Origin: Spirochaetota bacterium | GTDB lineage: Bacteria > Spirochaetota > Spirochaetia > Treponematales > UBA12059 | Assembly: GCA_003247225.1 (NCBI GenBank) | Contig: QKAK01000022.1 | Span: forward strand, 1 to 47,218 | Direction: 5' to 3' | Length of the DNA: 47,218 nt | Shown here: piece by piece, positions 12,543 to 41,924 of the stretch | Position numbering within the stretch: position 1 is the stretch's first letter | Layout: each line of letters begins with the position of its first letter | Translations under genes and position numbers: made by a program | The notes under the pieces: generated by a model | Seen by the model: only the letters and a program-made list of their open reading frames with translations | Told to the model about the DNA's origin: nothing | Databases searched by the model: none

Positions 12543-12571
12543 TTTACCCCGGAGCGCGGCCGGAGTACAAT
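12543..12571 (+). promoter_or_regulatory. Promoter with -10 six bases before the start codon (leaderless type)
   Basis: TTTACC (12543-12548), 17 bases, then TACAAT (12566-12571), then 6 bases and the ATG at 12578. The expected transcription start coincides with the start codon. No Shine-Dalgarno lies at a useful distance. Confidence 0.55.
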
Positions 12572-12577
12572 GGCAGC

Positions 12578-13021
12578 ATGCCGCACGTCATACACTACGA
12601 GGACGACATCTTCATCATAGACGCCATGGTACGTACGCTCTGCGACGCCTCGCGGCTGGAGCCCGACCCGGACGTGCTCGGGGACGCGATGCTGTCGGTA
12701 GCCAAGCTGGCCGACGCGTCGCTGCGCAGGGCGCGCGACCTCGTGCTGATGAACGAGCATCAGGTCGATAGGCCGGAGAGCCTCAGGCTGCTGGCCAGGA
12801 CGACCAGGTCGTTCGCAGACGCCGTAACGGCGCTGCTCAGGCCGGACGCGCCGCTGGGGCGGCACCTGGCCAGCTCCGCCGACGAGCTCGCCAGGATGGC
12901 TTCCGCCCAGCGGGCGGCCGCGTCCGAGCTGGCCGACGCGCTGCGCCAGGCCACCGGCGAGGACGCGTCGCCCGAGGATCACGTATCGGGCGACGAGCTG
13001 TCGGAGCTGCTGCGGCTGTGA
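12578..13021 (+). CDS. Unknown small alpha-helical protein
   Basis: I do not recognise this 147-residue protein. It is acidic, rich in Ala, Leu, Asp and Arg, and predicted mostly helical, with no membrane segment or signal peptide. It begins MPHVIHYEDDIFIIDAMV and ends in an acidic stretch (DELSELLRL). Support for a real gene: a consensus-like -10 exactly upstream of the ATG, codon use like its neighbours, and a fit between the divergent rpsF promoter and coaX, which it faces with a 4-base gap. Confidence 0.68.
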   Translation: MPHVIHYEDDIFIIDAMVRTLCDASRLEPDPDVLGDAMLSVAKLADASLRRARDLVLMNEHQVDRPESLRLLARTTRSFADAVTALLRPDAPLGRHLASSADELARMASAQRAAASELADALRQATGEDASPEDHVSGDELSELLRL

Positions 13022-13025
13022 CGGC

Positions 13026-13787
13026 CTAGAACAGGTAGCGTTCCATCTCGGCGAGCCCGTCGAGGGTCAGGTCGGGATCGATGGCGTCGAATACGTCGGT
13101 AAGCTCGGAGACGACGCGGCAGAGGCCTCCGGTCGCGACCACCTTGGCGCCGCCTAGCTCTCCCCTGATGCGGCCGACCAGGTACTCGACGAGGCCGGTG
13201 TAGCCGAGCACCACGCCGGCCTGGATCGCCTCGACGGTGTTGCGGCCCATCGCGGAGGCCGGCGCCTCGAGCGGCACGACCGGCAGCCGGGCCGTGGCCG
13301 AGGATAGGGACCCGGCCGCGGTGCCGAGCCCGGGGGCTATCGATACGCCTATTATGGAGCCGCTAGAGTCGATGGCGGTGAAGGTCAGCGCGGTGCCGAA
13401 GTCGACGACTAGGCAGGCGCCGCCGAAACGGCTCCAGGCCGCCACCGCGTCGGCGACCAGGTCCGAGCCTATCTCGTTGGCGGCGACCACGTTGACCGGC
13501 AGCCTATCGTAGACCGCCGGCCCCACGAGCACCGGCTCGACGCCGAACAGGTGCCGGGACATCTTCGTCATCGCGGCGGTCAGCTGGGGCACGACCGAGC
13601 TGACGATGACCCGGGTTATCGCCGATAGGTCTATGCCCCTATCCTGCAGGATGGACCTGACCACGACCCCGTACTCGTCCTCGGTCTTGCCCTGGACGGT
13701 GCGTATCCTGAGCGTATCCACGAGGCGGCCGGCGTCGTAGACGCCCCCGACTATATTCGTGTTTCCAGCGTCGATGACGAACAGCAT
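13026..13787 (-). CDS. coaX: Type III pantothenate kinase
   Basis: The ATP-dependent first step of coenzyme A synthesis, of the CoaX/Baf family (acetate-kinase/sugar-kinase fold). It is 253 residues from the ATG at 13787. The phosphate-binding start LFVIDAGNTNIVGGVYD and later DLVADAVAAW, VVDFGTALTFTAID and ATGGL blocks are visible. An in-frame ATG at 13805 would add six residues. I prefer 13787 because the family starts right at this strand and a consensus TTGACA lies upstream. coaD in the same window catalyses the fourth step of the pathway but is unlinked. Confidence 0.92.
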   Translation of the reverse strand: MLFVIDAGNTNIVGGVYDAGRLVDTLRIRTVQGKTEDEYGVVVRSILQDRGIDLSAITRVIVSSVVPQLTAAMTKMSRHLFGVEPVLVGPAVYDRLPVNVVAANEIGSDLVADAVAAWSRFGGACLVVDFGTALTFTAIDSSGSIIGVSIAPGLGTAAGSLSSATARLPVVPLEAPASAMGRNTVEAIQAGVVLGYTGLVEYLVGRIRGELGGAKVVATGGLCRVVSELTDVFDAIDPDLTLDGLAEMERYLF

Positions 13788-13796
13788 GATGGCAGA

Positions 13797-13825
13797 ATCA
13801 TTCATGACGACGGCCGGGATGTCAA
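13797..13825 (-). promoter_or_regulatory. Probable coaX promoter
   Basis: On the minus strand a perfect TTGACA (13825-13820) is followed after 17 bases by AATGAT (13802-13797), 9 bases before the coaX ATG at 13787. The -10 is a weak match, but spacing and -35 are ideal. Perfect 7-bp arms CGGCCGG/CCGGCCG (13811-13817 and 13834-13840) flank the -35. Confidence 0.5.
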
Positions 13826-13918
13826 GGACGATTCCGGCCGCGGCGGCATGGCGGCCAGCTTGCGCAGGGGCGGCCGCTCAGGCCATAATCGCCGTATATC
13901 AGCTAGGAGACGCTAACT

Positions 13919-15217
13919 ATGGCCGAAATCATACAGCCTCGGGTACTCAAGGGCTTCAGGGACTCGCTGCCGCGCGCCGAGATCGAGCGGGCCGCGATGA
14001 TCGAGGCGCTGACCGGCGCGTTCAGGAGCTTCGGCTTCGTCCCGATCGACACGCCGGTGCTGGAGTACGCCGAGATCCTGCTCGGCAAGGCCGGCGGCGA
14101 GACCGAGAAGCAGGTCTACCGATTCGCCGACGCAGGCGGGCGCGACGTGGCGATGCGCTTCGACCTGACGGTGCCGTTCGCCCGCTTCATGGCGGAGCAC
14201 GCCGGCGAGCTGTACCTGCCCTTCAGGCGCTACCACATGGCTAAGGTCTGGCGCGGCGAGAACACGCAGCGCGGCCGCTACCGCGAGTTCATGCAGTGCG
14301 ACTTCGACATCGTCGGCGTCGATACCGCGTCGGCCGACTTCGACATCGTGGCGACCATAGCCCGATCGATGGCGGCGCTCGGCGTCCCCGGCGCGACCAT
14401 ACGCGTGAACCACCGCGGCGTCTTCAACCGCTTCCTGGAGCGCGCGGGCGTCGCCGACAAGTCGGTCGAGGCGCTGCGGGTAGTCGACAAGCTGGCCAAG
14501 ATAGGCGAGCCGGAGACGAGGCGCCAGCTCGCGGAGCTGGCCGGCGAGGCCGCGGCCGACGAGATCATCGCCTTCATCGCCGGCGGCGAGGCCTTCGGCC
14601 CCACCCTCGAGCGCATGACGCGCCTGGCCGGCGGCCCTAACCCCGACTCCGAGCGCCTCGCCGAGATATACGAGATGGCCGAGGCCTGCGGGCTCTCGGG
14701 CTCGATAGAGCTGTGCCCGAGCATCACCCGAGGCCTCGACTACTATACCGGCGCCGTCTTCGAGACCTTCCTCCGCGACCTGCCGGGCATAGGCTCGGTC
14801 TGCTCGGGCGGCCGCTACAACGACCTGGCGTCGCTGTACACGAAGCAGCGCCTGCCCGGCGTCGGCGCGTCGGTCGGCATAGACCGGCTGATAGCCGCGC
14901 TCGAGGAGCTCGGCCGCTCCGGCGCCAAGGCCGGCTATACCCGCGTGCTCGTCGCCAACGTCGAGCCGGCCATGGCGCCGGAGTACCAGGCCGCCGCCGC
15001 CGCGCTCCGCGACGCCGGGATAGCCTGCGAGGTCTACCCCGAGCCGCGCAAGCTGGTCCAGCAGTACGCCTACGCCGAGCAGAAAGGCGCGTCCCACGCG
15101 CTGATACGCGGCTCCGACGAGAAGGCGCGCGGGCTGTGGCAGCTGCGCGACCTGGCGGCCAGGTCGAACGCCGAGCACGCCGGCCTCGGCTCGGTGATCG
15201 CCGCGCTGGAGGGCTGA
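13919..15217 (+). CDS. hisS: Histidyl-tRNA synthetase
   Basis: A class II synthetase charging tRNA-His; 432 residues. It begins with QPRVLKGFRDSLP. Motif 2 covers RYHMAKVWRGENTQRGRYREFMQCDFDIVG, the HisA motif is RGLDYYTGAVFE, and motif 3 lies in GVGASVGIDRL. The C-terminal anticodon-binding domain covers about 330-432. AGGAG precedes the ATG. It leads a three-gene string with a lipoprotein and trmB. A tRNA-His gene with the special extra 5' G lies at 38182-38254. Confidence 0.97.
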   Translation: MAEIIQPRVLKGFRDSLPRAEIERAAMIEALTGAFRSFGFVPIDTPVLEYAEILLGKAGGETEKQVYRFADAGGRDVAMRFDLTVPFARFMAEHAGELYLPFRRYHMAKVWRGENTQRGRYREFMQCDFDIVGVDTASADFDIVATIARSMAALGVPGATIRVNHRGVFNRFLERAGVADKSVEALRVVDKLAKIGEPETRRQLAELAGEAAADEIIAFIAGGEAFGPTLERMTRLAGGPNPDSERLAEIYEMAEACGLSGSIELCPSITRGLDYYTGAVFETFLRDLPGIGSVCSGGRYNDLASLYTKQRLPGVGASVGIDRLIAALEELGRSGAKAGYTRVLVANVEPAMAPEYQAAAAALRDAGIACEVYPEPRKLVQQYAYAEQKGASHALIRGSDEKARGLWQLRDLAARSNAEHAGLGSVIAALEG

Positions 15218-15221
15218 GGCC

Positions 15222-15902
15222 TTGAGGCGGGCCGGACCCATCATCGTCGCCGCCCTATCGTCGGCGATGTCGCTGGCGCTTGCCGCCTCGTGCTCCTCGT
15301 CGCCGCCGGAGATCGTATCGCTGGCGGTCAGGCTGATCGTCGTTGCGGCCGACCGGTCCGGCTCCACGGACGAGCGCCTGTCTGTGTTCGTCTCGGTCTC
15401 CGACGCGCAGGGCGTCGGGGACATCGAGTACCTCTACGTCGTGCACGACGGCGACGAGCTGTGCTGGACGCTGGGGCCCGACGAATGGAGCCGCGCGGAC
15501 GACGGCTCGAGCGTCTGGCTCGGCTCGAACTCGCTCGACGCCCCGGGGCCTACGATACCGCGCGGGGATTACCGCCTCGTGATGGTCGACAAGGCCGGCG
15601 AGCGCGCCGAGCGGAACTTCACGCTCAGCGCGCCGGAGACGAGCGCCTACGCCGCGCCGTCGGTGCGGCTGTCGGGCGCGACGGCCGTCGTCTCCTCGGC
15701 CTACCCGACGAATACCGCGTTCTTCCTCGACGCGGGCGGCAACGTGACGCACACCGCCCCTATCTCCGAGGGATCGACCGAGCTCGACTCGCTCTGGCCC
15801 GAAGGGAAATGGCGCGCCGGGGCCGACTACATTGCCGTCTACGGCCTCGAGCCCAAGGCGGAGATAGGATTCTTCTCATGGAAAGCAAGGCTGCCGGACT
15901 GA
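15222..15902 (+). CDS. Putative lipoprotein of unknown function
   Basis: A 226-residue protein starting at TTG, 4 bases after the hisS stop codon. The N-terminus has two Arg, a hydrophobic core and a lipobox LAASC with Cys24, so it should be exported and lipidated. The mature part is rich in beta-like stretches (SVFVSVSDAQGVGDIEYLYVV) with an Ig-like feel, but no family is recognised. It overlaps trmB by 25 bases, so expression of the two is probably coupled. Placement between two tRNA-related genes is likely an operon accident. Confidence 0.8.
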   Translation: MRRAGPIIVAALSSAMSLALAASCSSSPPEIVSLAVRLIVVAADRSGSTDERLSVFVSVSDAQGVGDIEYLYVVHDGDELCWTLGPDEWSRADDGSSVWLGSNSLDAPGPTIPRGDYRLVMVDKAGERAERNFTLSAPETSAYAAPSVRLSGATAVVSSAYPTNTAFFLDAGGNVTHTAPISEGSTELDSLWPEGKWRAGADYIAVYGLEPKAEIGFFSWKARLPD

Positions 15903-16591
15903 CCGGCCCGCTATCGTCCCGGGGGGACGGCATACACAGCTACGTTATCCGCGCCGGCCGCATGAGCGACGTCCAGAAGGACGCGATGGCCCGGCTCTAC
16001 CCCGTCTACGGCTTCGCGTGGGACCCGGATCGGACGCTCGGCCCGTCGGACATAGTCGGCCGCGAGGCGCCCTTCGTCGTCGAGGTAGGCTTCGGCATGG
16101 GCCAGGCGACCGCCGACATAGCCGAGGCCCTGCCGGAGACCGCCTTCCTGGGCTTCGAGGTGCACGCTCCGGGCGTCGGGAAGCTCCTGGCCGAGATCGA
16201 GGCCCGCGGCATACGCAACCTGCGCGTCTCCAGGCACGACGCGGTCGACGCGATAGCGACGGTCATCGCCCCCGGCTCGGTCGACGGCTTCCACGTGTTC
16301 TTCCCCGACCCGTGGCCGAAGAAGCGCCACCATAAGCGGCGCATCATGAACGCCGCCTTCGTCAGGCTGATGGCGAGCCGGCTCAAGCCGGGCGGCTATA
16401 TCTACTACGCGACCGATTGGGAGGAATACGCCGAGGCGACGCTCGAGACGCTCCTCTCGGAGCCGGCGCTCGAGAACGCCCACGAGCGATGGGCCGTGCG
16501 CAAGAGCTGGAGGCCGGTGACTAAATTCGAGCGCCGCGCGATCGAGGACGGGCGGCCGATACGCGAGCTGGAGTTCCGGCGCCGCGCGTAG
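15878..16591 (+). CDS. trmB: tRNA (guanine-N7-)-methyltransferase
   Basis: An S-adenosylmethionine-dependent enzyme making m7G46 in tRNA variable loops; 237 residues. The SAM-binding motif VVEVGFGMGQATADIA and the family signature FPDPWPKKRHHKRR are clear, as is the C-terminal TKFERR block. The ATG at 15878 lies inside the end of the lipoprotein gene. A much longer upstream in-frame extension is an artefact of GC-rich sequence. It faces hrpA with a 13-base gap. Confidence 0.95.
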   Translation: MESKAAGLTGPLSSRGDGIHSYVIRAGRMSDVQKDAMARLYPVYGFAWDPDRTLGPSDIVGREAPFVVEVGFGMGQATADIAEALPETAFLGFEVHAPGVGKLLAEIEARGIRNLRVSRHDAVDAIATVIAPGSVDGFHVFFPDPWPKKRHHKRRIMNAAFVRLMASRLKPGGYIYYATDWEEYAEATLETLLSEPALENAHERWAVRKSWRPVTKFERRAIEDGRPIRELEFRRRA

Positions 16592-16604
16592 CGGCCGGGC
16601 CGCC

Positions 16605-19151
16605 CTACGCGAAGAACCCCGATAGCTTGCGGTATAGCGAGCCGACCCGCTCCTTCTGCTCGGGGCCGGCCAGCTCCGATATATCGTCGACCAGGGCCTC
16701 GAGGCTCGCGAGGCTCTCGTTCAGGGCCGTATGGAAGCCGCGCGACACCCTGAACCAGTAGCCGCCCGCGGTGTCGGTGAACATCGCGACGAAGCCGAGC
16801 TCCGGGTTCTTGGCCTTCCAGTACGAGACCTGGAGCACGTGGTCGAGGGCCGCGACGAGCCCGTCCAGGTCGTCGTTCACGTTGAACTGCTTCTTACGCG
16901 GCCAATCGCGCTCGAGGTCCGCCTCCGGGTCGAGCCAATGTGCGACGCGCAGGATGGTCTCGAGCTTCTCGCCGTCCATCAGGCGGTTGCGGCCTACGAC
17001 GACGACGCCGAGCATGCCCTTGTAGGCCAGGCCGGCGTCGGCCGGCAGGTTCTCCCTTGCCCGCCTGAAGGCGTCCCACACGAGCAGGGCCTTCTTGCGC
17101 TTCTTCTCGGGGACGAGGTCGAAGCTCTCGCCGCCGATCTTGACGCGGTTCGTGAAGTCCCTCGCCTCGTCTAGCTTCGGGCGCTGGCCCTCGGCCCGGG
17201 TCCCGGCGGCCGGGATGTACTTCGAGCCGGCCGCCCGCCTGCCCTGTTCGACCCGTGGCTTCGCCTGGCCCTTGGCGCCGAGCAGGGTCTCGGAGACGAT
17301 GGGCGATATCCGCCCGAGCATCCGCTTCTGGAGCGGCGATACGCTCATCGCGTACATCCTCGTCGTCCTGACTATCTCCCCGGCGACGATGTAGTCGGGG
17401 CTCTCCTTGAACATGACCGAGCTCGGGTGTATCTGCACGCGCTCGCCCATCAGGGTGCTGAAGACGCCGCGCTCCTGCCTGGCGCAGACGAACTGGATGA
17501 GGCCGCGGCTGACGGCGCAGAGGTAGTCCTCTGTCGAGCCGCCGGAGGCGATCGGTACGCCGAGGTCGTGGACTATCAGCTCGATCTGTTCCTTGATCCG
17601 CACGATCTCGAGCATGGTACGCTCGTCGAGGTAGCTGCGGTCGCAGAATTTAGCCTTGTGCCGAGCCTCGACGAAGGCCTTGAACAGCTTGAGGTAGGAG
17701 ACGAAGTCGCCCTCGGGGTCCCTGAACGCGTGGTGGGCGCGCCTGGCCTCGAGCTCCTCGCCCGGGGGCAGCACGTAGGGGCTCTGGGTCGACAGGAAGG
17801 CCGCCGCTATCACCACCTCCTCGACGACGTCGGGATAGCGCAGTATCGCCTCGACTATCATGCGGGACAGGCGCGGCAGGAGCGGGAACGCGCACATCAT
17901 CTGGCCGACCTTGGACAGGCTGCGGTCCGGCTCGAAGGCCTCGAGCAGGTTGAGCACGTCCATCGCGCCGAGCACGCCGGCGCGCGGCGGCTTGGAGATG
18001 AAGTCGAAGCGCTCGAAGTCGGTGATCCCGAGCTCGGCCATGCGCAGCACCACCTCGGACAGGTCGGTGCGGTAGATCTCCTCCATCGTGAACAGCGACC
18101 GGTTCTCGAAGTCCTCGCGGGGGTAGAGGCGGTAGCAGTAGCCGGGGGCGGTACGGCCCGCCCTGCCCTTGCGCTGGTTGCTCGACGCCTTTGACACCGG
18201 CACCTGGACCAGGCTGGCGGTATAGGTCTTCGGATTGTAGAAATTGAGCTTGGCCTGGCCCGAGTCGATGACGCTCGTGACGCCGTCTATGGTAACGCTG
18301 GTCTCGGCGATGTTCGTCGAGATGATCACCTTCTTCTTGCCGAGCGGGGCCTTGTCGAATACGCGAGCCTGCTCGTCCTTGCCGAGCCGGGCGTACAGGG
18401 GGACGATATGGATGCGGTTCTTGCTCTCGCCGTAGGCGAGGCGTTCCATGCAGTCCTTGATCAGCTTCTCGCCCGGCAGGAACACCAGGATGTCGCCGTC
18501 GCGCCGGTCGCCGACGACGCGGTCGACGATCTGCTCTATCTTGTCGATCAACGAGTCCGGGTCGCCCTCGACGGCCGGGGGATCCCAGACGACGGTCACC
18601 GGATAGACCTGCGTCTCGATCTTGACGATGGGGCAGTCGCCGAAGTAGGCGCTGAAGACCTCGGCGTTGATCGTCGCGCTCGAGACGATGACCTTGAACT
18701 CCGGCCTGGCCTCGAGCACGCGCTTGAGGAGGCCGAGGATGAAGTCGATGTTCAGGCTGCGCTCGTGCGCCTCGTCGACCATGATCACCGAGTACTTGGA
18801 CAGCGCCGGGTCGAGCTTCATCTCCTGGAGCAGGATGCCGTCGGTCATGATCTTTATCTTCGTGTACTGATTGGTCTTGTCCTCGAAGCGCATCTTGTAG
18901 CCGACGAGGCCGGGCAGCGGCGTGCCGAGCTGCCTGGAGATGAACTCGCTGACCGAGATGGCGGCTATGCGCCGCGGCTGGGTCACGCCGATGACGCCGT
19001 GGTCGGCGTAGCCTGCCTCGTTCAGGATGACCGGGAGCTGGGTGGTCTTGCCCGAGCCGGTCGGGCTCTCGACGACGATGACCTGGTTGTCGCGGAGCGA
19101 GGCGAGGATACGCTCCTTCTGCTGATAGACTGGTAAGCTTTTAGGATCCAT
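16605..19151 (-). CDS. hrpA: DEAH-box RNA helicase HrpA-like
   Basis: A DEAH-family ATP-dependent RNA helicase, 848 residues from the ATG at 19151. The motor has Walker A GSGKTT (32-37), DEAH in MVDEAHERS, SSAT, TNIAETSVTIDG and the QRKGRAGR arginine-finger motif, then the helicase-associated (HA2) and OB-fold regions. It is shorter than the approximately 1300-residue enterobacterial HrpA and closer to the form known in Borrelia. A six-residue longer TTG start (19169) exists, but the ATG sits exactly 6 bases after a TACAAT -10 element. RNA targets are unknown. Confidence 0.93.
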   Translation of the reverse strand: MDPKSLPVYQQKERILASLRDNQVIVVESPTGSGKTTQLPVILNEAGYADHGVIGVTQPRRIAAISVSEFISRQLGTPLPGLVGYKMRFEDKTNQYTKIKIMTDGILLQEMKLDPALSKYSVIMVDEAHERSLNIDFILGLLKRVLEARPEFKVIVSSATINAEVFSAYFGDCPIVKIETQVYPVTVVWDPPAVEGDPDSLIDKIEQIVDRVVGDRRDGDILVFLPGEKLIKDCMERLAYGESKNRIHIVPLYARLGKDEQARVFDKAPLGKKKVIISTNIAETSVTIDGVTSVIDSGQAKLNFYNPKTYTASLVQVPVSKASSNQRKGRAGRTAPGYCYRLYPREDFENRSLFTMEEIYRTDLSEVVLRMAELGITDFERFDFISKPPRAGVLGAMDVLNLLEAFEPDRSLSKVGQMMCAFPLLPRLSRMIVEAILRYPDVVEEVVIAAAFLSTQSPYVLPPGEELEARRAHHAFRDPEGDFVSYLKLFKAFVEARHKAKFCDRSYLDERTMLEIVRIKEQIELIVHDLGVPIASGGSTEDYLCAVSRGLIQFVCARQERGVFSTLMGERVQIHPSSVMFKESPDYIVAGEIVRTTRMYAMSVSPLQKRMLGRISPIVSETLLGAKGQAKPRVEQGRRAAGSKYIPAAGTRAEGQRPKLDEARDFTNRVKIGGESFDLVPEKKRKKALLVWDAFRRARENLPADAGLAYKGMLGVVVVGRNRLMDGEKLETILRVAHWLDPEADLERDWPRKKQFNVNDDLDGLVAALDHVLQVSYWKAKNPELGFVAMFTDTAGGYWFRVSRGFHTALNESLASLEALVDDISELAGPEQKERVGSLYRKLSGFFA

Positions 19152-19157
19152 GCGTCC

Positions 19158-19185
19158 ATTGTAATCCAACGGAGCCGATTATCAA
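19158..19185 (-). promoter_or_regulatory. hrpA promoter (leaderless type)
   Basis: On the minus strand TTGATA (19185-19180), 16 bases, TACAAT (19163-19158), 6 bases, then the ATG at 19151. Transcription should begin at or next to the start codon. Its -35 overlaps that of the divergent promoter. Confidence 0.65.
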
Positions 19186-19208
19186 AGCGCATGCGGCCGC
19201 TGTATACT
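19179..19208 (+). promoter_or_regulatory. Promoter of the transporter gene (leaderless type)
   Basis: TTATCA (19179-19184), 18 bases, TATACT (19203-19208), 7 bases, then the ATG at 19216. The -35 hexamer overlaps the hrpA -35 on the other strand, so the two promoters should compete or be co-controlled. Confidence 0.5.
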
Positions 19209-19215
19209 CCGGCGC

Positions 19216-20484
19216 ATGCTCAAGGAAGTCCTGTCGGTCGTCGTCGTCGCCGCGGCGATGGCCGCCATAGCCGCGGGCCGCGTGCCCGGGCTCCGCATGA
19301 ACCGCGCGGCCATCGCGTTCGCGGCCGCCGCCATCCTCGTCGCCGTCGGGGCCATACCGCTCGCCGGCGCCTTCGAGGCAATAGACCTCGGCACCATCGT
19401 CCTGCTCCTGTCGATGATGCTGATCGTCGCCGCCGTACGCCTCTCGGGCCTGTTCGACGTGGTGGCGGCCCGGCTGGCCGGCCTGGCAGGCTATCCGCGG
19501 GCCTTCCTCGGGGCCGTCGTCGCGGTCGCGGGGGCCTTGTCGGCGCTGTTCATGAACGACACGATGTGCCTGGTGCTCGCCCCGGTCGTCGCCGAGACGA
19601 GCCTGCGCTCCGGCCGTAACCCGACGCCGTACCTGGCGGCTACCGCCATCGCCTCGAACGTCGGCTCCGCGGCGACCGTCATCGGCAATCCGCAGAACAT
19701 GCTGATAGGCGCGAGGAGCGGCATACCCTTCTCGGAGTTCGCGTATCGCCTCGCCCCGCCGGCCATAGCGGGCCTAGCCGTCTGCTGGCTGGTGGTCCAG
19801 CTGGCCTTCCCCGGCGAGTTCGGGAGACGTCGGCGTCCGTCCCCGGCCGCCGCGGACGAGGCGGCGACGAGCGCGACGAGCGCCGGCCCGCTCGGGGCGG
19901 TCAGGCTGGACAAGAAGCTGGCCGTCAAGTGCGCGGTCGCCGGCGCGGCGATGCTGATAGGCTTCCTGGCCGGGGTCCCGGTCGCGCTGGCCGCGATGGT
20001 CCCGGCCGCGCTGCTGCTGTCGTCGACCAGGCTCGAGTCGGAGAAGCTGCTGTCAGGCGTCGATTTCAACCTGCTCGTGTTCTTCGGCGGCCTCTTCGTG
20101 ATCACCGACGCGGCCGCGGGTACCGCGGCCTTCGCCTGGCTCGAGAGGACGGCCCTGACCCGCGCGGCCGCCTCCCCTTGGCTCTTCGCGTCGGCTACGG
20201 CCGCCGTGTCGAACGTCGTCTCGAACGTGCCGGCGGTCATGATGCTGTCGCCGATAGCCTCTGCCGCCGCCGACCCCCGCTCGGCCTGGCTCCTGCTCGC
20301 GATGGCGAGCACCTTCGCCGGCAACCTGACCCTGCTCGGCTCCGTCGCGAACCTGATAGTCGCCGAGGGCGCGGCCGGACGCGGCGCGAGGCTCGGCTTC
20401 GTCGACTACCTCAAGGCGGGCCTGCCCGTCACGCTGATCACGCTGGCGATGGGCACCGCCTGGCTCGCGCTGACGTCTGGCTGA
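19216..20484 (+). CDS. Ion-transporter-superfamily permease (ArsB/NhaD-like)
   Basis: A 422-residue polytopic membrane protein with about ten or more hydrophobic segments. The paired re-entrant regions typical of the ion-transporter superfamily are visible: SALFMNDTMCLVLAPVV, then SNVGSAATVIGNPQNMLIG in the first half and SNVVSNVPAVMMLSP with GNLTLLGSVANLIV in the second. Relatives carry arsenite, Na+/H+ or dicarboxylates, and the substrate cannot be decided here. No ars genes are nearby. The downstream gene is under its own riboswitch, so no link with thiamine is implied. Confidence 0.85.
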   Translation: MLKEVLSVVVVAAAMAAIAAGRVPGLRMNRAAIAFAAAAILVAVGAIPLAGAFEAIDLGTIVLLLSMMLIVAAVRLSGLFDVVAARLAGLAGYPRAFLGAVVAVAGALSALFMNDTMCLVLAPVVAETSLRSGRNPTPYLAATAIASNVGSAATVIGNPQNMLIGARSGIPFSEFAYRLAPPAIAGLAVCWLVVQLAFPGEFGRRRRPSPAAADEAATSATSAGPLGAVRLDKKLAVKCAVAGAAMLIGFLAGVPVALAAMVPAALLLSSTRLESEKLLSGVDFNLLVFFGGLFVITDAAAGTAAFAWLERTALTRAAASPWLFASATAAVSNVVSNVPAVMMLSPIASAAADPRSAWLLLAMASTFAGNLTLLGSVANLIVAEGAAGRGARLGFVDYLKAGLPVTLITLAMGTAWLALTSG

Positions 20485-20501
20485 TAAACGAGCCGCCGCT
20501 G

Positions 20502-20531
20502 TTGACCAGCGGGCGCCGGCGGACGTACAGT
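20502..20531 (+). promoter_or_regulatory. Promoter of the thiamine transport operon
   Basis: TTGACC (20502-20507), 18 bases, TACAGT (20526-20531). Transcription would start within a few bases of the riboswitch P1 stem, fitting a riboswitch at the very 5' end of the mRNA. Confidence 0.55.
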
Positions 20532-20535
20532 AGGC

Positions 20536-20627: not shown

Positions 20628-20628
20628 C

Positions 20629-25765: not shown

Positions 25766-25784
25766 CAGTATAGCAAGTATACTG
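25766..25784. repeat. Inverted repeat between the regulator and the Memo gene
   Basis: CAGTATA (25766-25772) and TATACTG (25778-25784) are a perfect 7-bp inverted repeat with a 5-base spacer. The right arm contains the TATACT -10 element of the Memo gene. The repeat lies in the only non-coding stretch between the response-regulator start and the Memo start, so it is an operator candidate. Confidence 0.5.
25778..25783 (+). promoter_or_regulatory. -10 element of the Memo gene (leaderless type)
   Basis: TATACT lies exactly 6 bases before the ATG at 25790. No consensus -35 is visible 16-18 bases upstream and there is no Shine-Dalgarno. Confidence 0.5.
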
Positions 25785-28439: not shown

Positions 28440-28468
28440 ACGATATAGCGTACCCGGCGCGATTGCAA
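28440..28468 (-). promoter_or_regulatory. Amidohydrolase promoter (leaderless type)
   Basis: On the minus strand TTGCAA (28468-28463), 17 bases, TATCGT (28445-28440), 6 bases, then the ATG at 28433. It fills the 36-base gap after the EamA gene. Confidence 0.55.
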
Positions 28469-29393: not shown

Positions 29394-29399
29394 AGTCTA
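29394..29399 (-). promoter_or_regulatory. -10 element of the EamA gene (leaderless type)
   Basis: TAGACT on the minus strand, 6 bases before the ATG at 29387. The best -35 candidate, TTGCAC (29423-29418), is weak and would overlap that of the divergent gene. Confidence 0.4.
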
Positions 29400-29405: not shown

Positions 29406-29437
29406 CCGTTCGGACCGGTGCAAGGCGTCCCGAACGG
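29406..29437. repeat. Inverted repeat between divergent promoters
   Basis: CCGTTCGG (29406-29413) and CCGAACGG (29430-29437) form a perfect 8-bp inverted repeat with a 16-base spacer. It is nearly centred between the -10 elements of the EamA and peptidase genes, an operator candidate for both. Confidence 0.45.
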
Positions 29438-29440
29438 TGG

Positions 29441-29446
29441 TACAAT
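29441..29446 (+). promoter_or_regulatory. -10 element of the peptidase gene (leaderless type)
   Basis: TACAAT, one mismatch from consensus, 5 bases before the ATG at 29452. No Shine-Dalgarno and no clear -35. Confidence 0.45.
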
Positions 29447-34304: not shown

Positions 34305-35560
34305 GCGCTCTTCTTCAGTCCTTCGATGACCGGGGGCGACTTGGACACGACGGTGTCGCGGGTCACGATGACGCGCCGGTCGTCCGAGCCGCTCGGGAGG
34401 TCGTACATGACGTCGATCAGCAGGTTCTCGACGATCGACCTGAGCCCGCGGGCGCCGGTCTTGCGCGCTATGGCCTGCTCGGCTATCGCGTCTATCGCCT
34501 CCGGGGCGAACACGAGCTCGGCGCCGTCGAGCTTGAAGCTCTCCTGGTACTGCTTGAGTATCGAGTTCTTCGGCTCGGTGATGATGCGCTTGAGGTCGTC
34601 GGCCTCGAGGTTGTCGAGGGCCACCTGGATCGGCAGCCGGCCGATGAACTCAGGTATCATGCCGAACTTGACGAGGTCGTCCGGGTGCATGTCCATGAAC
34701 AGCTCGCGGAGGCCTATCTTGGTCTTCTCCTGCAGCTCCGCGCCGAAGCCGAGCGCGGCCTTTGCTACGCGGGCCTCGATGGTCTTGTCCAGGCCGACGA
34801 AGGCGCCGCCGCAGATGAACAGGATGTTCGTCGTATCGATGCGGATGTATTCCTGCTGCGGGTGCTTGCGTCCGCCCTGCGGCGGCACGTTGGCGACGGT
34901 GCCCTCGATGATCTTGAGCAGGGCCTGCTGCACGCCCTCGCCCGAGACGTCCCGGGTGATCGACACGTTCTGCGTCTTGCGGGCTATCTTGTCGATCTCG
35001 TCGATGTAGATGATGCCCTTCTCGGCGAGCGATACGTTGCCGCCGGCGTTCTGGATCAGCTTGAGGAGGATGTTCTCCACGTCCTCGCCGACGTAGCCGG
35101 CCTCGGTCAGCGTCGTGGCGTCGGCGATGGCGAACGGCACGTTCAGCTTCTTGGCCAGCGTGCGGGCGAGCAGCGTCTTACCGGTCCCGGTCGGGCCGAG
35201 CAGGAGCACGTTCGACTTCTCGAGCTCGACGCCGTCGGCCAGGTTGTGCTGGTGGGCTATCCGCTTATAGTGGTTGTAGACCGCCACGGACAGCACCTTC
35301 TTCGCGTAGTCCTGCCCGATGACGAACTGGTCGAGGTAGTCCTTGATGTCCTTGGGCTTGGGCACGTCGGTCGAGAAGTCGCCGGAGGCGGCGCTCTCGT
35401 CCTCGGCGAGGATGCGGTTGCAGACCTGTACGCACTCGTCGCAGATGTAGACGCCGGGGCCGGCTATCAGGCGCTTGGCGAACTCGGCCGACTTGCCGCA
35501 GAACGAGCACTCGTGGAGCTCCTCGCCGTCGGTCCCCTTACTTCCCTTCGACCGCGCCAT
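34301..35560 (-). CDS. clpX: ATP-dependent Clp protease, ATP-binding subunit ClpX
   Basis: A 419-residue unfoldase that feeds substrates to ClpP. The N-terminal zinc-binding domain has C18/C21 and C40/C43. The AAA+ core has Walker A GPTGTGKT (122-129), [11 protein letters not shown] and the GYVGEDVE pore loop. A LGF tripeptide in AALGFGAEL is the likely ClpP-docking loop. It overlaps clpP by 23 bases upstream and lon by 4 bases downstream. Confidence 0.97.
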
Positions 35561-36158
35561 GCTTCCTCCGCTCCAGGATCGAGTCGACCAGGCCGTACTC
35601 GACCGCCTCCTGCGCCGACATGAAGAAGTCGCGCTCCATATCCTGGGCCACGCGATCGACCGGCTTGCCGGTATGCTTGGCGAAGTACTCCACCGTCATC
35701 TTCTTCATGCGGATGATCTCGCGGGCCTGGATGCTGATGTCGGAGGCCTGCCCCTGGACGCCGCCCCAGGGCTGGTGTATCAGGATCCTCGAGCTGGGCA
35801 GGGCCAGGCGCTTGCCGGCCGCGCCGCCGGCGAGCAGCAGGGCGCCCATGCTCGACGCCTGGCCGACGCAGATGGTCTTCACGTCGGGCTGGACGATCTG
35901 CATCGTGTCGTAGATGGCCAGCCCGGCCGTCACCGCGCCGCCGGGGGAGTTGATATATAGGTCGATATCCTTCTCGGCGTCCTGCGAGGCGAGGAACAGC
36001 AGCTGGGCGACCACGAGGTCGGCCGTCAGGTCGTTGATCTCGCCGTCGACGAAGACGATGCGGTCCTTCAGGAGCCGCGAATAAATATCGTACGAGCGCT
36101 CGCCTATCCCGGTCTGCTCTATGACCACCGGTACGAGGTTGTGCATCTTCTCGATCAT
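35538..36158 (-). CDS. clpP: ATP-dependent Clp protease, proteolytic subunit ClpP
   Basis: A 206-residue serine peptidase forming the barrel used by ClpX. The catalytic triad is Ser103 (ASSMGA), His128 (LIHQPWGG) and Asp177 (ERDFFMSA), with spacing as in E. coli ClpP. I choose the ATG at 36158 because GAGGTG lies 7 bases upstream. A TTG start seven codons earlier is less likely. It follows tig by 23 bases. Confidence 0.96.
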
Positions 36159-36181
36159 CTCATTGCACCTCGCGGACAAGA

Positions 36182-37540
36182 TTACTCATTTTCCTTGAAT
36201 AAGTCCACGAACGCGATCTTCTTGCCCTTCTTGGCCTTCATCTTCTTCTCGAGGTCGGCGATCAGGCGGTCTTCCTTGATCCTGTCGACGAGGTATTCGA
36301 CCATGCCGCGGCGCTCGTACTCGGCCTTGACCTCCTCGACCGACAGGTTGGAGTCGGCGGCCATCTTGGCGTACTCGGCCGCGACGTCCTCGTCGGAGGC
36401 CGAGTACTTGCCCTCCTCGGTCAGCTTGTCGAGCACGAGCCTCGTCTTGATCGCCTTCTCGGCCTCCGGCCTCCACTCCTCGCGCAGCTGGTCGACGCTG
36501 CGGCCGCTCATGCTGACGATCTGGGCCAGGCGCTCCTCGCTATCGATGCCCATGCGCTGCATCAGGTTGCGCAGCCGCATCTCGAGCTCGGCGGCGACCA
36601 TCGAGGCCGGGAGGTCGACGGTCGACTTCTCGACGAGCGCGTCGACGACGCCCTTCTCGCGGAGGCTCTTGAGCCTGTCCTCGAGGCGCTTCTCGAGCTT
36701 GGCCCGGATATCGGCCTTGAGGTCGTCGAGGGTCTTGAACTTCTCCGATACGTCCTGGGCCAGATCGTCGTCGAGCTCGGGGAGCTTCTTCTCCTTGAGC
36801 TTGGTCAGCTTGACGCGCAGCTTCTTGGTCTGGCCGGCCAGCTCGGAGTACTCGAAGTCGGCCGGGAAGGCCTTCTCGATCGTCTTCTCGGCGTCCTTCT
36901 TCATGCCGATCACGTCGTCGTCGAATTTATACAGGTTGTGGCCGGAGCCCAGCTCGAAGACGAAGTCCTGGCGCTCGGTGCCCTTGACCGGCTCGCCGGA
37001 CTCGTCGAGCTCGGCGTAGTCGACCGTGGCGATATCGCCCTTCTTGGCGGCGGCCTTGTCGTCCTTGTCCATGACGATGGCGTTGCGGTCGCGGATCTCG
37101 TCGAGCTCGCGCTCCTCGTCGGCCTTGGCGATGGTCACCTGGGGCAGCTCGAGCTCCATGCCCTCTATGTCGCCGGGTACGACCTCGGGGAATACGTCGT
37201 AGGTGACGGAGAACGAGAAGTCGGCGTCGAGCTCGAAGGCGGGCTGGCCGTCGAGAGACGGCTGGGCGTACGACAGCGGGACGAGGGCCTCTCCGTCGAG
37301 CGCCTTCTCGACCGCCTCGTCCATCACGCGGCCCATCGCGTCGAGCTTGAGCTGAGGTCCGAACTTGCGCTCGAGTATATTCGCGGGCACCTTGCCCTTG
37401 CGGAAGCCGTCTATCCTGACGTTCTTCGCGTAATCCTTGAGCAGGGCGTCGTAGGCGGCCCGGACGTCGTCCTTGCCTACGGTGACGGTGAGCCTGACCG
37501 CGGAATGCTCCAGCTTCTCGATATTCTTCGTTACGACCAC
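36182..37540 (-). CDS. tig: Trigger factor
   Basis: A ribosome-associated chaperone with peptidyl-prolyl isomerase activity, 452 residues from the GTG at 37540, preceded by AAGGGG. The N-terminal ribosome-binding region contains the signature [17 protein letters not shown]. The FKBP-like domain follows ([11 protein letters not shown] to [10 protein letters not shown]), then a long helical, Lys/Glu-rich C-terminal chaperone domain. A longer upstream reading is rejected as it lacks family similarity. First gene of tig-clpP-clpX-lon. Confidence 0.95.
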
Positions 37541-37581
37541 GTGTATTCCCCTTCTCCTGCGGGACCGCGGAAGGGCCCGCC

Positions 37582-37587
37582 AGTATA
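37582..37587 (-). promoter_or_regulatory. Possible -10 element for tig
   Basis: TATACT on the minus strand, about 40 bases before the tig GTG, in the gap between tig and the tRNA terminator. No good -35 at 16-18 bases. Listed because the terminator upstream implies tig needs its own promoter. Confidence 0.3.
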
Positions 37588-37634
37588 CGTAGCATTGGAA
37601 GCGAGCCGTCTGCCGCGGCGGCGTCGCTAACGAC

Positions 37635-37673
37635 AAAAAAATAAGGCGATCCGGGAGTTCTCCGGACCGCCTT
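37635..37673 (-). terminator. Intrinsic terminator of the tRNA cluster
   Basis: On the minus strand AAGGCG (37673-37668) pairs with CGCCTT (37648-37643), extended inside by GTCCGG/CCGGAT around a short loop, and is followed by a run of seven T (37641-37635). It ends the tRNA transcript ahead of tig. Confidence 0.9.
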
Positions 37674-37680
37674 CACGTCG

Positions 37681-37752
37681 AGCGGGAAACGGGAGTCGGA
37701 CCCGCGACATCCACCTTGGCAAGGTGGCGCTCTACCACTGAGCTATTCCCGC
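37681..37752 (-). tRNA. tRNA-Gly (anticodon GCC)
   Basis: Acceptor GCGGGAA/TTCCCGC, anticodon arm CCACC-TTGCCAA-GGTGG giving GCC, T arm GCGGGTCCGACTCCCG. The discriminator is T, and the next bases (CGA) are not CCA. Confidence 0.95.
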
Positions 37753-37795
37753 GATGCAGTTCCATCTTCGCCGACGCTCGGAACGTCCGATCTAC

Positions 37796-37876
37796 TGCGA
37801 GAGAAGGGACTTGAACCCTTACGCCGGAGGCACCAGATCCTAAGTCTGGCGTGTCTGCCAATTCCACCACTCTCGC
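37796..37876 (-). tRNA. tRNA-Leu (anticodon TAG)
   Basis: Acceptor GCGAGAG/CTCTCGC with A discriminator, long variable arm typical of class II tRNAs, anticodon arm CCAGA-CTTAGGA-TCTGG giving TAG. No CCA is encoded. Confidence 0.95.
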
Positions 37877-37961
37877 TCGGAACTATAGGGTCCGAACGAT
37901 ATCGAAATCGGCAAACCCTGTCAAGGGCGACGCCCCGGGCGACGAGCGCCCGAGACGTTCT

Positions 37962-38034
37962 TGAGCCGTGCAGGGATCGAACCTGCGACCCGCAGATTAA
38001 GAGTCTGCTGCTCTACCAGCTGAGCTAACGGCCC
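37962..38034 (-). tRNA. tRNA-Lys (anticodon CTT)
   Basis: Acceptor GGGCCGT/ACGGCTC with A discriminator, anticodon arm GCAGA-CTCTTAA-TCTGC giving CTT, T loop GGTTCGATCCC. No CCA is encoded. Confidence 0.95.
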
Positions 38035-38065
38035 TGGTACAAACACAAAACACAAAACAAATCGC

Positions 38066-38139
38066 TGCGTCCGGAGGGAGTCGAACCCCCGACCTACGGA
38101 TTCGAAGTCCGTCGCTCTATCCAGCTGAGCTACGAACGC
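38066..38139 (-). tRNA. tRNA-Arg (anticodon TCG)
   Basis: Acceptor GCGTTCG/CGGACGC with A discriminator, anticodon arm ACGGA-CTTCGAA-TCCGT giving TCG. No CCA is encoded. Confidence 0.94.
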
Positions 38140-38181
38140 CCGTCGCCGATCGGCCCCAGGCGCCGGAATCAGACGAGCTAG

Positions 38182-38254
38182 GGTGGATGACGGGGTTCGA
38201 ACCCGCGACAACCAGATCCACATTCTGGGACTCTACCGCTGAGCTACATCCACC
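38182..38254 (-). tRNA. tRNA-His (anticodon GTG)
   Basis: Acceptor GTGGATG/CATCCAC with the extra 5' G (from position 38254) facing the C discriminator, the identity pair of tRNA-His. Anticodon arm CCAGA-ATGTGGA-TCTGG gives GTG. First gene of the cluster; no CCA is encoded. Confidence 0.95.
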
Positions 38255-38272
38255 GTGCGCTTGGCGAGACGT

Positions 38273-38301
38273 ACTATGCCAAAACGCAAAAAAAGTGTCA
38301 A
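38273..38301 (-). promoter_or_regulatory. Promoter of the tRNA cluster
   Basis: On the minus strand a perfect TTGACA (38301-38296), 17 bases containing a T7 run, then CATAGT (38278-38273), about 19 bases before tRNA-His. Near-consensus and correctly placed. Confidence 0.75.
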
Positions 38302-38309
38302 GTGGATTT

Positions 38310-39326
38310 CTAAAAAATATTTCGCTCGCCGCGGATCGGGCTGATCTCGCCGCAGGAGGCGCAGCGGCCGTCCTTGAGCCCGGAGGCGTCGACGGCGTAG
38401 CCGATCCTCGAGACGAGTACGGCGCCGCAGGCCCGGCAGAGCGTGACGGAGCGCTCGCCGGGTACGTTGCCGGTATAGACGTAGCGAAGGCTCCGACGGG
38501 CGACGTCCGCGAGGGAGCGCAGCGACGACGCCTTGGTCGCCGGGATCGTATAGCGGTACATGGGACGGTACGCCGACAGGTGGTACGGAATGTCGGGCGA
38601 CAACGAGGCCAGGAAGCTCGCGATAGCGGCTATCCCGGCGGGGTCGTCGTTCTTGCCCGGGATGACCAGCGTGGTGACCTCGACGTGCACGCCGCGCTCG
38701 ACGGCGGCCGTCACGAAGCGCTTGACCGACTCCAGGTCGCCGCCCAGCTCGTCGCGGTAGAAGCCCTCGTCCCACGACTTCAGGTCTACGTTGACGGCGT
38801 CGCACTGCGACAGTACGTCGGCGGCGGCCTCGTCGCCGCAGCAGCCGTTGGTGACGAGCGCGTTGGCCAGGCCGGCGGCCCGGGCCGCCCTCATGCACGC
38901 CGCGACGAACTCGGCGTGGACGAGGGGCTCCGAGTACGTATGCGCCAGCGACGGGCAGCCGGCCGCCCGCGCCTCCGCGGCGAGGCCGGCCGGGTCGACG
39001 CGACGCGTCGCGGCGTCGACGCGCTGGGATATCCCGTGGTTCTGGCAGAACGGGCAGCGGAGGTTGCAGCCAAGGTAGCCGACCGAGTAGGTCTCGCTGC
39101 CCGGCATGAAGTGGTACAGGGGCTTCTTCTCGATAGGGTCGGCCGAGACGGCGCTGGCCATGCCGTAGAACGGCAGCGCCATGGCGCCGCCCGCGTTGCG
39201 CCTGACCCTGCAGGCGCCGGAGCCGCCGTCGCGTATGACGCAGCGGCGGTGGCAGAGCCGGCAGCGCAGGTCGCCGCCCGGAAGGCGCTCGTAATATCGG
39301 GCCGGCGATCCGGCGCGGGCATCCAC
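38310..39326 (-). CDS. amrS: AmmeMemoRadiSam system radical SAM enzyme
   Basis: A 338-residue radical-SAM protein resembling pyruvate-formate-lyase-activating enzymes. The 4Fe-4S motif is C87-x3-C91-x2-C94 (CNLRCPFCQNH). Extra cysteines flank the barrel: N-terminal C22, C25, C29, C39 (CRLCHRRC...C), and two C-terminal C-x-x-C pairs (CRACG, CASCG) that look like a zinc ribbon. This layout is that of the AmmeMemoRadiSam radical-SAM subfamily. It ends an operon with lnt and an unknown gene. Its usual partners AMMECR1 and Memo lie elsewhere in the window. Reaction unknown. Confidence 0.92.
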   Translation of the reverse strand: MDARAGSPARYYERLPGGDLRCRLCHRRCVIRDGGSGACRVRRNAGGAMALPFYGMASAVSADPIEKKPLYHFMPGSETYSVGYLGCNLRCPFCQNHGISQRVDAATRRVDPAGLAAEARAAGCPSLAHTYSEPLVHAEFVAACMRAARAAGLANALVTNGCCGDEAAADVLSQCDAVNVDLKSWDEGFYRDELGGDLESVKRFVTAAVERGVHVEVTTLVIPGKNDDPAGIAAIASFLASLSPDIPYHLSAYRPMYRYTIPATKASSLRSLADVARRSLRYVYTGNVPGERSVTLCRACGAVLVSRIGYAVDASGLKDGRCASCGEISPIRGERNIF

Positions 39327-39330
39327 GGCG

Positions 39331-39705
39331 CTAGCCCCGGTGCCGTCCGAGCAGCTTCTCCTTGAACGCCTTCGCGTCGTTCATGTAGCGCAGCGGCGCG
39401 TCGACCTCGAACGGCTCGTAGCGTATGCCGACCGCGCCGCGGCGTATCCAGAGCCGCACGATGCGGTAGCTCTCGCCCGCCTCGGTCACCGGGCTCGGCA
39501 GGTCCTGGGCGCCGACGATGTCGGCCGCCTTGAATTCGTAGATGGCGGACTCCCCGGCGTTCGGCTCGACGAGCAGGATGATCTTGCCGTCGTCGTAGGG
39601 ATGCTTCCGCGGCGAGCCGGTGAACGCGAGCGCGTCCTGCGGAGGGTCGCTTTTATAGGGTTGAAGCTCGTAGAACGGGCTATTCAGGTATTCGCGTACG
39701 CTCAT
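39331..39705 (-). CDS. Unknown protein between lnt and the radical-SAM gene
   Basis: A 124-residue soluble protein with no recognised family. It contains aromatic and charged stretches (EYLNSPFYELQPYKSDPPQD, RIVRLWIRRGAVGIRYEPF) and no signal peptide, cysteine motif or membrane segment. The ATG overlaps the lnt stop codon by 4 bases and the gene ends 4 bases before amrS, so it is tightly built into the operon. Codon use matches its neighbours, supporting a real gene. Confidence 0.8.
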   Translation of the reverse strand: MSVREYLNSPFYELQPYKSDPPQDALAFTGSPRKHPYDDGKIILLVEPNAGESAIYEFKAADIVGAQDLPSPVTEAGESYRIVRLWIRRGAVGIRYEPFEVDAPLRYMNDAKAFKEKLLGRHRG

Positions 39706-41357
39706 GGATCATCCTTCCTCGACTGAACGTCGTCGAAATATAGTATAAGCGCCAAGGACGCCAGAATACAGGCTAGTACCGTCGCGAACCAGTCTCCGTA
39801 GCGAAGGTACGGCGTTTCCTCGCCTGTATAGACGGGGACCTCGACCAGGCGGGCGTCGGGCTCGAAGAGCGGCAGGGAATCGAGCACGCGTCCGTCTGGG
39901 CCGACCACCGCCGACACGCCCCCGTTCGTCGAGCGCACGAGGGTCCGCCTGAGCTCGACGGCCCTGAAGCGAGCCGCGACGAAATGCTGGATCTCCGCCG
40001 AGTCGGTCCTGGACCAGGCGTCGTTCGTCAGGTTGACCAGGAGCTCGGCGCCGTCGAGGACGAAGCGGCGGCACAGGTAGGCGAACGCGTCCTCGAAGCA
40101 GATCGGCGCGGCGAAGCGCACGTTCCCCGCCCGGGCCGTCGGCAGGTCGAACAGCACGCGCTCCGTTCCCATCGTCCAGCCGGACGCAAGGCCTACGACG
40201 TCCTGGATGAAGGAGCGCACGGCCGGCACCTCCCAGAACGGGATCGCCTCGGCGAACGGGACCGGGTGCGTCTTGGCGTAGGAGCCGACCTGGCGGCCGT
40301 CCGGGTCTATCAGTATCACCGAGTTCGTCGCCTCGAAGCTCTCGTAGTCGAGGATCTCGGGCGCGCCGGTCAGGAGGTAGGCGCCCGAGTCCCGTATGAA
40401 GCTCCTGAGCGGGTAGTCGGCCGGCGCGCGCGCGAAGTAGCGCTGGAAGCCGTTCCATGGCCGGCGCAGCGTCGACTCGCTGAACAGCACGAGGTCCGCG
40501 CCCCCGCCCGAGGCTTCGAGCGCGGCGGCCGCGAGGCCGATCGAGCCGGCCAGGTTCTCGGCCTCGGTGCCCTCCCACGGGTCGACGTTCTGCTGTACGA
40601 GGAGGACATCGACCGTGGCTCGGGCCTCCCGAGGCCGCTCGAGCGCCGCGAGGCCGTAGGCGCAGACGGCGACGAGGCACACGACGGCGACGACGAGATT
40701 ACCCAGGTCCGCGAAGCGGCCGTCGGGCCAGGCGGGCCGGGGCGGCAGTACGGCGGCGAAGCGGCCTGAAGGCGGCCTCTCGGCCGCGCCGTCGGACGCC
40801 GCCCGCAGAGGCGCGGGCGGCCCGCAGAGGGCCTCGCCGATAGAGGCGGATACGAAGGCCAGCGCGAACGACAGCCCGTACACGCCGGTGGACTCGGCTA
40901 TCTGGGTAGCCGGCGATACGGTATTCCAGCTGTACGCGACGAGCCCCCACGGATAGCCGAGGAATCCGGACGACTTGCCCCACTCGAAGACGGCCCAGGC
41001 CATCGCGAAGACGAGCGGCCGCGCGATCCCGCCGCGCTTGAGCGCGCCGCGCAGGTATAGCCCGAGGACGCCGTACACTACCATGTAGGCGATCACCGTC
41101 GTGCCGAGCGTCCAGAACCTGAAGTCCTTGAAGAACCAAAGCCAATAGCTGGAGACGCCGTGGGCCAGGCCGCCGAAGACGGCGCCGACGGCGAAGGCCT
41201 CGCGGTACGACGCGGTTTCGGCCAGGGCGACGAACAGCGGCGCGAGGGCGACGAGGCCGAGGGCCGGGCTGCCCCACGGGAACAGCTCGTTCGGGAGCGA
41301 CAGGGCCAGGAGTACGCTCGAGATCATGCCAAGGAAGAGCCGTCGCGCGATGTCCAT
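39702..41357 (-). CDS. lnt: Apolipoprotein N-acyltransferase
   Basis: An inner-membrane enzyme adding the third acyl chain to lipoproteins, 551 residues from the ATG at 41357. About six hydrophobic segments in the first 190 residues and one at the C-terminus enclose a nitrilase-type domain. The catalytic Glu294 lies in [10 protein letters not shown], Lys362 in YAKTHPVPF and Cys420 in PICFED. Several lipoprotein genes in this window would be substrates. A longer reading that runs antisense through coaD is rejected. Confidence 0.94.
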
Positions 41358-41363
41358 GGCCCC

Positions 41364-41369
41364 ATGATA
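41364..41369 (-). promoter_or_regulatory. -10 element of lnt (leaderless type)
   Basis: TATCAT on the minus strand, 6 bases before the lnt ATG. No clear -35 and no Shine-Dalgarno. Confidence 0.45.
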
Positions 41370-41394
41370 CACGCAGATCGGGCGGAGCGCCACC

Positions 41395-41423
41395 TTGACG
41401 CCGGACGGCGCCGCGGTTATGGT
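41395..41423 (+). promoter_or_regulatory. coaD promoter (leaderless type)
   Basis: TTGACG (41395-41400), 17 bases, TATGGT (41418-41423), 6 bases, then the ATG at 41430. Best example of the promoter-next-to-start arrangement in this window. Confidence 0.65.
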
Positions 41424-41429
41424 TCGTCC

Positions 41430-41924
41430 ATGGTCAAGGCCGTCTTTCCCGGTTCGTTCGATCCCCCGACCTACGGGCACCTGAACATCATCGAGCGCGC
41501 CCGCACTATATTCGAGCGGGTCCTGGTCGTCGTCGCGGTCAACCGCGACAAGCGATACCTGTTCGACGCCGACGAGCGCATGGCGTTCATGCAGGAGCTG
41601 GTAGCGCCCTGGCCGAACGTCGAGGTGCACCGCTGCGACACCCTGATAGTCGATTTCGCGCGCGAGCACGCCTGCAGGGTGCTGCTGCGCGGCGTCAGGA
41701 GCGTGCAGGACTTCTCGTACGAGTTCGAGCTGTCCATCCTGAACAAGGGCGTCGGGCCGGAGATCGAGACGGTCTTCATGCCCACCGACCAGAAATTCTT
41801 CGTGCTGCGCTCGAGCGCGATCAAGGAGCTCGCGTCCTTCGGCGGCGACGTCAGCGCGATGGTTCCCCCGGTCGTGGCCAAGGCGCTCGAGCGTTTCAGG
41901 GAAGGAAGCTATTCGTCGTCTTGA
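41430..41924 (+). CDS. coaD: Phosphopantetheine adenylyltransferase
   Basis: The penultimate step of coenzyme A synthesis, adenylating 4'-phosphopantetheine; 164 residues. The nucleotidyltransferase motif T/HxGH appears as [15 protein letters not shown], and the C-terminal half has [17 protein letters not shown] and the [14 protein letters not shown] block. Length normal. It diverges from lnt, and its stop codon lies within the -35 hexamer of the rpmF promoter. Confidence 0.96.

Follow-up and report, generated by a model that had tools for sequence, protein, structure and literature searches.

Candidate leaderless promoters in an uncultured spirochaete: -10 boxes adjoining start codons and their orthologues

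Does a -10 hexamer that almost touches a start codon mark a promoter whose transcript carries no leader? This question is raised by a stretch of 47,218 nucleotides (the window, taken at its full length), which is one contig (QKAK01000022.1) of the 3.38-Mb draft genome, in 224 contigs, of an uncultured spirochaete of the Treponematales (UBA12059; assembly GCA_003247225.1). The window is rich in guanine plus cytosine (GC; 65-71% per 4 kb), and an earlier note, made from its letters alone, had reported TAnnnT hexamers 5-7 bases before nine start codons and proposed that they are leaderless-type promoters. This proposal is supported here by an enrichment of the motif at one position, by a -35 element that emerged at 17 bases without having been selected for, and by conservation across orthologues. 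On these sequence grounds, the boxes are very probably housekeeping (sigma-70-type) promoters, whose transcripts would start at the A of the ATG, or no more than about one base away from it, and be read from a 5'-terminal AUG without a Shine-Dalgarno (SD) site.

Nine boxes and their excess over chance

All nine hexamers were recovered with the positions, spacings and in-frame ATG codons that had been claimed for them, and one candidate absent from the earlier note can be added. The -35-like hexamers given below were identified by eye in the upstream stretches.

12,566-12,571, plus strand: candidate -10 box TACAAT, 6 bases before ATG 12,578 of a conserved gene without Pfam match; -35-like TTTACC at 12,543-12,548
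19,158-19,163, minus strand: candidate -10 box TACAAT, 6 bases before the hrpA ATG at 19,151; -35-like TTTGAT at 19,181-19,186
19,203-19,208, plus strand: candidate -10 box TATACT, 7 bases before ATG 19,216 (CitMHS transporter); -35-like TTATCA at 19,179-19,184
25,778-25,783, plus strand: candidate -10 box TATACT, 6 bases before ATG 25,790 (Memo-like protein)
28,440-28,445, minus strand: candidate -10 box TATCGT, 6 bases before ATG 28,433 (amidohydrolase); -35-like TTGCAA at 28,463-28,468
29,394-29,399, minus strand: candidate -10 box TAGACT, 6 bases before ATG 29,387 (EamA transporter); -35-like TTGCAC at 29,418-29,423
29,441-29,446, plus strand: candidate -10 box TACAAT, 5 bases before ATG 29,452 (putative aminopeptidase)
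41,364-41,369, minus strand: candidate -10 box TATCAT, 6 bases before the lnt ATG at 41,357
41,418-41,423, plus strand: candidate -10 box TATGGT, 6 bases before the coaD ATG at 41,430; -35 TTGACG at 41,395-41,400
140-145, plus strand: additional candidate -10 box TAGCAT, 6 bases before ATG 152 (maf)

The nine starts lack an SD site, as had been stated; the GGAG found directly before the -10 box of gene 12,578 would fall outside a leaderless transcript. Of the -35-like hexamers, said to be four at 16-17 bases, four indeed lie at 17 (12,578, hrpA, 28,433 and coaD) and two more at 18 (29,387 and 19,216). Pfam matches exist for eight of the nine, the exception being gene 12,578 (12,578-13,021; 147 codons), which 18 of the 23 family genomes contain, its own included. 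A gene caller blind to the motif chose the same start in 8/9 cases and gave hrpA a TTG 18 bases upstream; the hrpA ATG is likely the true start, because the stretch from TTG to ATG is one base longer in the nearest relative (L001) and the TTG is absent in L002. Further matches to the motif, at ATG 15,267 and 15,878, lie within an operon and may be due to chance.

The comparison with shuffled controls that had been suggested as a check was run on 510 kb of the same genome, comprising the window, contigs selected by the motif and contigs chosen without it (blind contigs). Starts were called without use of the motif; on one 50-kb stretch of E. coli, the caller missed one of 42 listed genes and placed 33 of the other 41 starts exactly. 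Of 444 called starts, 32 had TAnnnT at exactly -12, with 6 at the neighbouring position -13 and 5 at -11; 60 dinucleotide shuffles gave 3.8 on average at -12 and never more than 8. When genes were counted by the distance to an in-frame ATG, 7, 8, 38, 7 and 9 of them had the motif at exactly -14, -13, -12, -11 and -10. With any in-frame ATG near the called start admitted, 52/469 genes had it at -12 +/-1 (13-19 at control offsets), and in this three-wide window the reordered hexamers ATnnnT and TTnnnA reached 10 and 7 genes, other A/T hexamers ranging overall from 4 to 26. In the blind contigs alone, the exact -12 position was occupied in 13/221 starts, for a background per upstream position with a mean of 2.8 and a maximum of 9, and 9 of 10 TA-led (TAnnnT-preceded) genes tested from them have Pfam matches. 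Across the whole genome, TACAAT-N6-ATG occurs 13 times and its reversed pattern twice. E. coli, taken as negative control, had no peak (exact -12 in 2/112), its three-wide count of 10 being slightly above the control maximum of 9, and an actinobacterium taken as positive control gave 8/91 against a control mean of 1.0. The mirrored motif TnnnAT (30/381 own genes at -12 +/-1) was also tried as a control and is not relied on, since TATAAT and TACAAT fit both forms. Start codons are biased as well, with ATG at 28/29 TA-led starts versus 198/258 others (p = 0.014), a bias that is consistent, and no more than consistent, with translation from a 5'-terminal AUG.

A second promoter element emerged from 44 non-operonic sites that had been selected only by TAnnnT before an ATG. 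Thymine is found at -23 in 31/44 and at -22 in 23/44 of them (T background 0.163), which is the place of a -35 box with a 17-base spacer, and at least four of six matches to TTGACA at a spacing of 16-18 occur in 19/44 sites, compared with 1/44 and 2/44 at control spacings. TA-led genes thus lie in a sigma-70-type context, with a -35 element at about 17 bases. This argues against chance hexamers, which would bring no such element.

The excess of TA-led genes amounts to about 6-9% of genes: 52/381 genes with an ATG candidate in the whole sample (control mean 17.6; excess about 9%) and 21/234 in the blind contigs (controls 4-11; excess about 6%). Usage on the scale of Deinococcus or actinobacteria, about 20% or more of all genes, was not reached.

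Gene context and orthologues

Operon genes had been said to differ from the leaderless-type ones, and they do. Among starts with an upstream gene within 25 bases, 5/173 have the motif and 74% an SD 4-mer; counted by ATG candidates, 8/139 operonic genes have the motif against a control of 3.6. In the blind contigs, TA-led starts make up 14/68 of divergent and 3/81 of operonic genes (p = 0.0015), and 35 of 42 TA-led starts from four contexts of our sample lack an SD 4-mer. The clean split into a leaderless and a leadered class that had been drawn from the window does not hold, since the leaderless type is a minority even among non-operonic genes (43/227; control mean 13.3), many first genes having SD 4-mers and many neither signal. 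As regards the anti-SD sequence, 16S ribosomal RNA gave no match in the own-genome assembly or in that of the same-genus relative G023, possibly because of an assembly gap in each, and a partial one in G015 of the same family; the 16S 3' end was not found in four loci, two of them with runs of N.

Conservation was followed in the loci of named genomes together with the 23 genomes of the family, after removal of rows below a per-gene identity floor (30-60%), starting after residue 25, with low query coverage, with fewer than 45 bases upstream or duplicating an identical start region. The nine genes gave 202 distinct orthologous starts, counting the copies in the window, and 126 of these keep TAnnnT at -11 to -13, for a sum of control-offset means of 9.8. 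The most constant gene is coaD, which is TA-led in 18/19 starts, with TTGAC upstream in all 19 rows (by eye) at a variable spacer. Gene 12,578 is TA-led in 12/18 starts, all 12 with CTTTACC upstream (by eye), as is the putative aminopeptidase in 12/18, the EamA transporter in 8/11, the Memo-like gene in 8/15, the amidohydrolase in 4/7 and the CitMHS transporter in 6/13. For lnt the count is 8/18, and that includes L130 and L133, where the match seems to be fortuitous.

For hrpA, the best 80 of 246 genome stretches encoding a relative of it were taken. These loci are titled Spirochaetes, Treponema, Gracilinema or Brucepastera (one only 'bacterium'), and the nearest relatives among them are metagenome-assembled genomes with 95% and 87% identity, the second being HGW-Spirochaetae-3 (Spirochaetota). 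In a cultured relative, Brucepastera parasyntrophica, hrpA is preceded by TATATT at 8 bases from the ATG. With the motif scored at -11 to -14, 79 of the 80 could be classified (one was too short): 45 have the TA motif only, 27 an SD site only, one both and six neither, which makes 46/79 TA-led; two of the 'neither' loci (L038 and L059) have their projected start inside coding sequence. TA motif and SD site thus nearly exclude each other at orthologous starts. Among the 27 SD-only loci are 20 in which an upstream frame of at least 80 codons stops 4 bases beyond the projected start of hrpA, an arrangement like that of overlapping genes in operons; the same flag is carried by five TA-led loci, so that the tie to operon context is not strict. 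A Fisher test of solitary against operonic hrpA (p = 0.006) is not relied on, as spurious open frames inflate the automatic operon flag in GC-rich loci, and the near-exclusion of the two signals is used in its place.

The CitMHS gene offers a second series: it is of leaderless type in six loci, and in L008/L117, L114 and L112/L029 the ATG is preceded by a TATAAT at 28-29 bases, with GGAGG in the intervening sequence. For hrpA, CitMHS and gene 12,578, the same gene seems to be leaderless in some relatives and SD-led in others. In both the hrpA and the CitMHS series, a single gene appears to have switched its mode of initiation. Whether coaD, lnt, hrpA and other solitary or divergent housekeeping genes have been leaderless since the family ancestor or earlier, individual genes switching to SD initiation on joining an operon or on gaining sequence between -10 box and ATG, is a conjecture to which we give an even chance. 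If it is true, orthologous genes would offer a natural experiment for studying why and how one mode of initiation gives way to another.

From box to transcript

In the proposed mechanism, a -10 box that ends 5-7 bases before the ATG would be recognized in the sigma-70 manner, and this distance would make RNA polymerase start on the A of the ATG, give or take about one base. The product would be a leaderless mRNA, which the ribosome would read from its 5'-terminal AUG without an SD site. Only a minority would be expressed in this way, chiefly divergent or solitary genes, operon-internal genes mostly using SD sites.

Several observations weigh against this reading. At 76 of the 202 orthologous starts the motif is missing from -11 to -13 (42 have an SD 4-mer and 34 neither), and the loci are related, so that orthologue counts are not independent. 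In 200-kb samples of relatives, enrichment is weak in G023 (13/136; control mean 9.0, maximum 13) and absent from two treponemes of lower GC content (G006, 18/159 vs 15.1; G007, 19/144 vs 16.9), and whole genomes G002 (1 vs 2) and G008 (16 vs 18) have no excess of TATAAT-N6-ATG over its reversed pattern. Some other A/T hexamers are fairly common at -12 +/-1 in the own genome (AAnnnA 26, TAnnnA 23, ATnnnA 23 and AAnnnT 16 genes, versus 52), and the three-wide count in the blind contigs (16/221) is below the highest background window (17). On the other side, G015 is enriched (13/142 vs 4.2, maximum 8) and SZUA-475 moderately so (19/145 vs 10.2, maximum 16), and TATAAT-N6-ATG exceeds the reversed pattern in 7/9 relatives.

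The boxes could also be real promoters whose transcripts have very short leaders, of about 1-5 bases, or begin inside the first codons and are translated from a start a little further downstream. The remaining ten of the 18 lnt rows speak for such leaders, as their TATnAT lies 8-9 bases before the ATG (by eye), which corresponds to an expected leader of about 1-3 bases, and small shifts in spacing are seen in other genes. However, a spacing of exactly 6 predominates, which puts +1 on the A of the ATG, and the coaD protein alignment starts at residue 1, that very ATG, in 19/19 rows. We regard short leaders as improbable, truly leaderless transcripts being the preferred reading.

It is much less probable still that the boxes are internal secondary promoters, the main transcripts beginning at some distance upstream and carrying an ordinary leader. 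Neither motif nor SD is present at many first genes, which indicates that other modes of initiation exist in the genome. Yet in three divergent gene pairs of the window the start codons are 64, 64 and 72 bases apart, with a TA-led promoter on each side, and this space is largely taken up by the two back-to-back promoters, no SD being within reach of the starts. Between hrpA and the CitMHS gene, the -35-like hexamers of opposite strands overlap in TTATCAAA (19,179-19,186), an element that is kept in several relatives, and two polymerases could hardly sit on both promoters simultaneously. Such a back-to-back layout is not general, as 5/63 divergent pairs of the whole sample are TA-led on both sides.

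Finally, that the hexamers are AT-rich chance matches near start codons, picked by eye, is hardly credible: single TAnnnT matches are common upstream of genes, and the finding stems from a window (12/48 genes with TAnnnT at -12 +/-1 relative to an in-frame ATG, five control offsets giving 0-4) richer than the rest of the sample (40/421; p = 0.003), a richness that fits its having been noticed, but the exact -12 peak outside the window, the shuffles, the reordered hexamers, the emergent -35 element and the conservation largely contradict it.

For leaderless promoters as the preferred reading, a practical consequence concerns annotation: starts adjoining a TAnnnT box should not be shifted in search of a ribosome-binding site. 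Elsewhere in the window, the gene at 36,182-37,636, which has a tRNA cluster upstream, was called with a TTG start directly after an inverted-repeat-like stretch and a T run (by eye), and this start is probably wrong.

Relation to known leaderless systems

This work brings sequence-level support, orthologue by orthologue, for leaderless expression in a little-studied family of spirochaetes, and what deserves to be retained from it are the sets of orthologues where a gene seems leaderless in some genomes but SD-led in others. Leaderless mRNAs have also been the subject of a study of Leptospira interrogans, of which Zhukova is said to be the first author. The leaderless reading is well supported at the level of sequence. 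The novelty for the lineage that had been suggested is not supported, since leaderless genes have been reported both in Spirochaetes (PMC3160421) and in L. interrogans (PMC5243855), and the present case falls within this known kind, its share of genes being similar or slightly higher. Among the matches listed from the open-licence literature there was no transcription-start map of a treponeme, which is no claim that none exists.

In the accessible part of the survey by Zheng et al. 2011 (PMC3160421), leaderless genes are given for 6 of 18 Spirochaetes genomes (mean 3.9%, range 1.8-6.9%), and TA-led genes are those with TAnnnT some 12 bases ahead of the start codon and no SD, the three middle bases of the motif carrying little information in high-GC groups. 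Motif, position and lack of SD are the same here; in contrast, the members named in that part exclude this uncultured family, and conservation at the level of orthologues and apparent SD switching are added by our analysis. The same phylum includes L. interrogans, in which RNA sequencing found about 440 mRNAs with a 5' untranslated region under 10 nt (PMC5243855); its report, as far as available, gives sigma-54 elements and no other promoter motif, whereas a sigma-70-type motif is clear in our genome. Lastly, the -10 box a few bases before the open reading frame (ORF) is shared with Deinococcus-Thermus, for which the portion consulted of PMC12340547 describes a motif tested by mutation and enhanced by a -35 element. 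There, the box precedes about 30% of ORFs on average, unlike the excess of about 6-9% of genes in this spirochaete.

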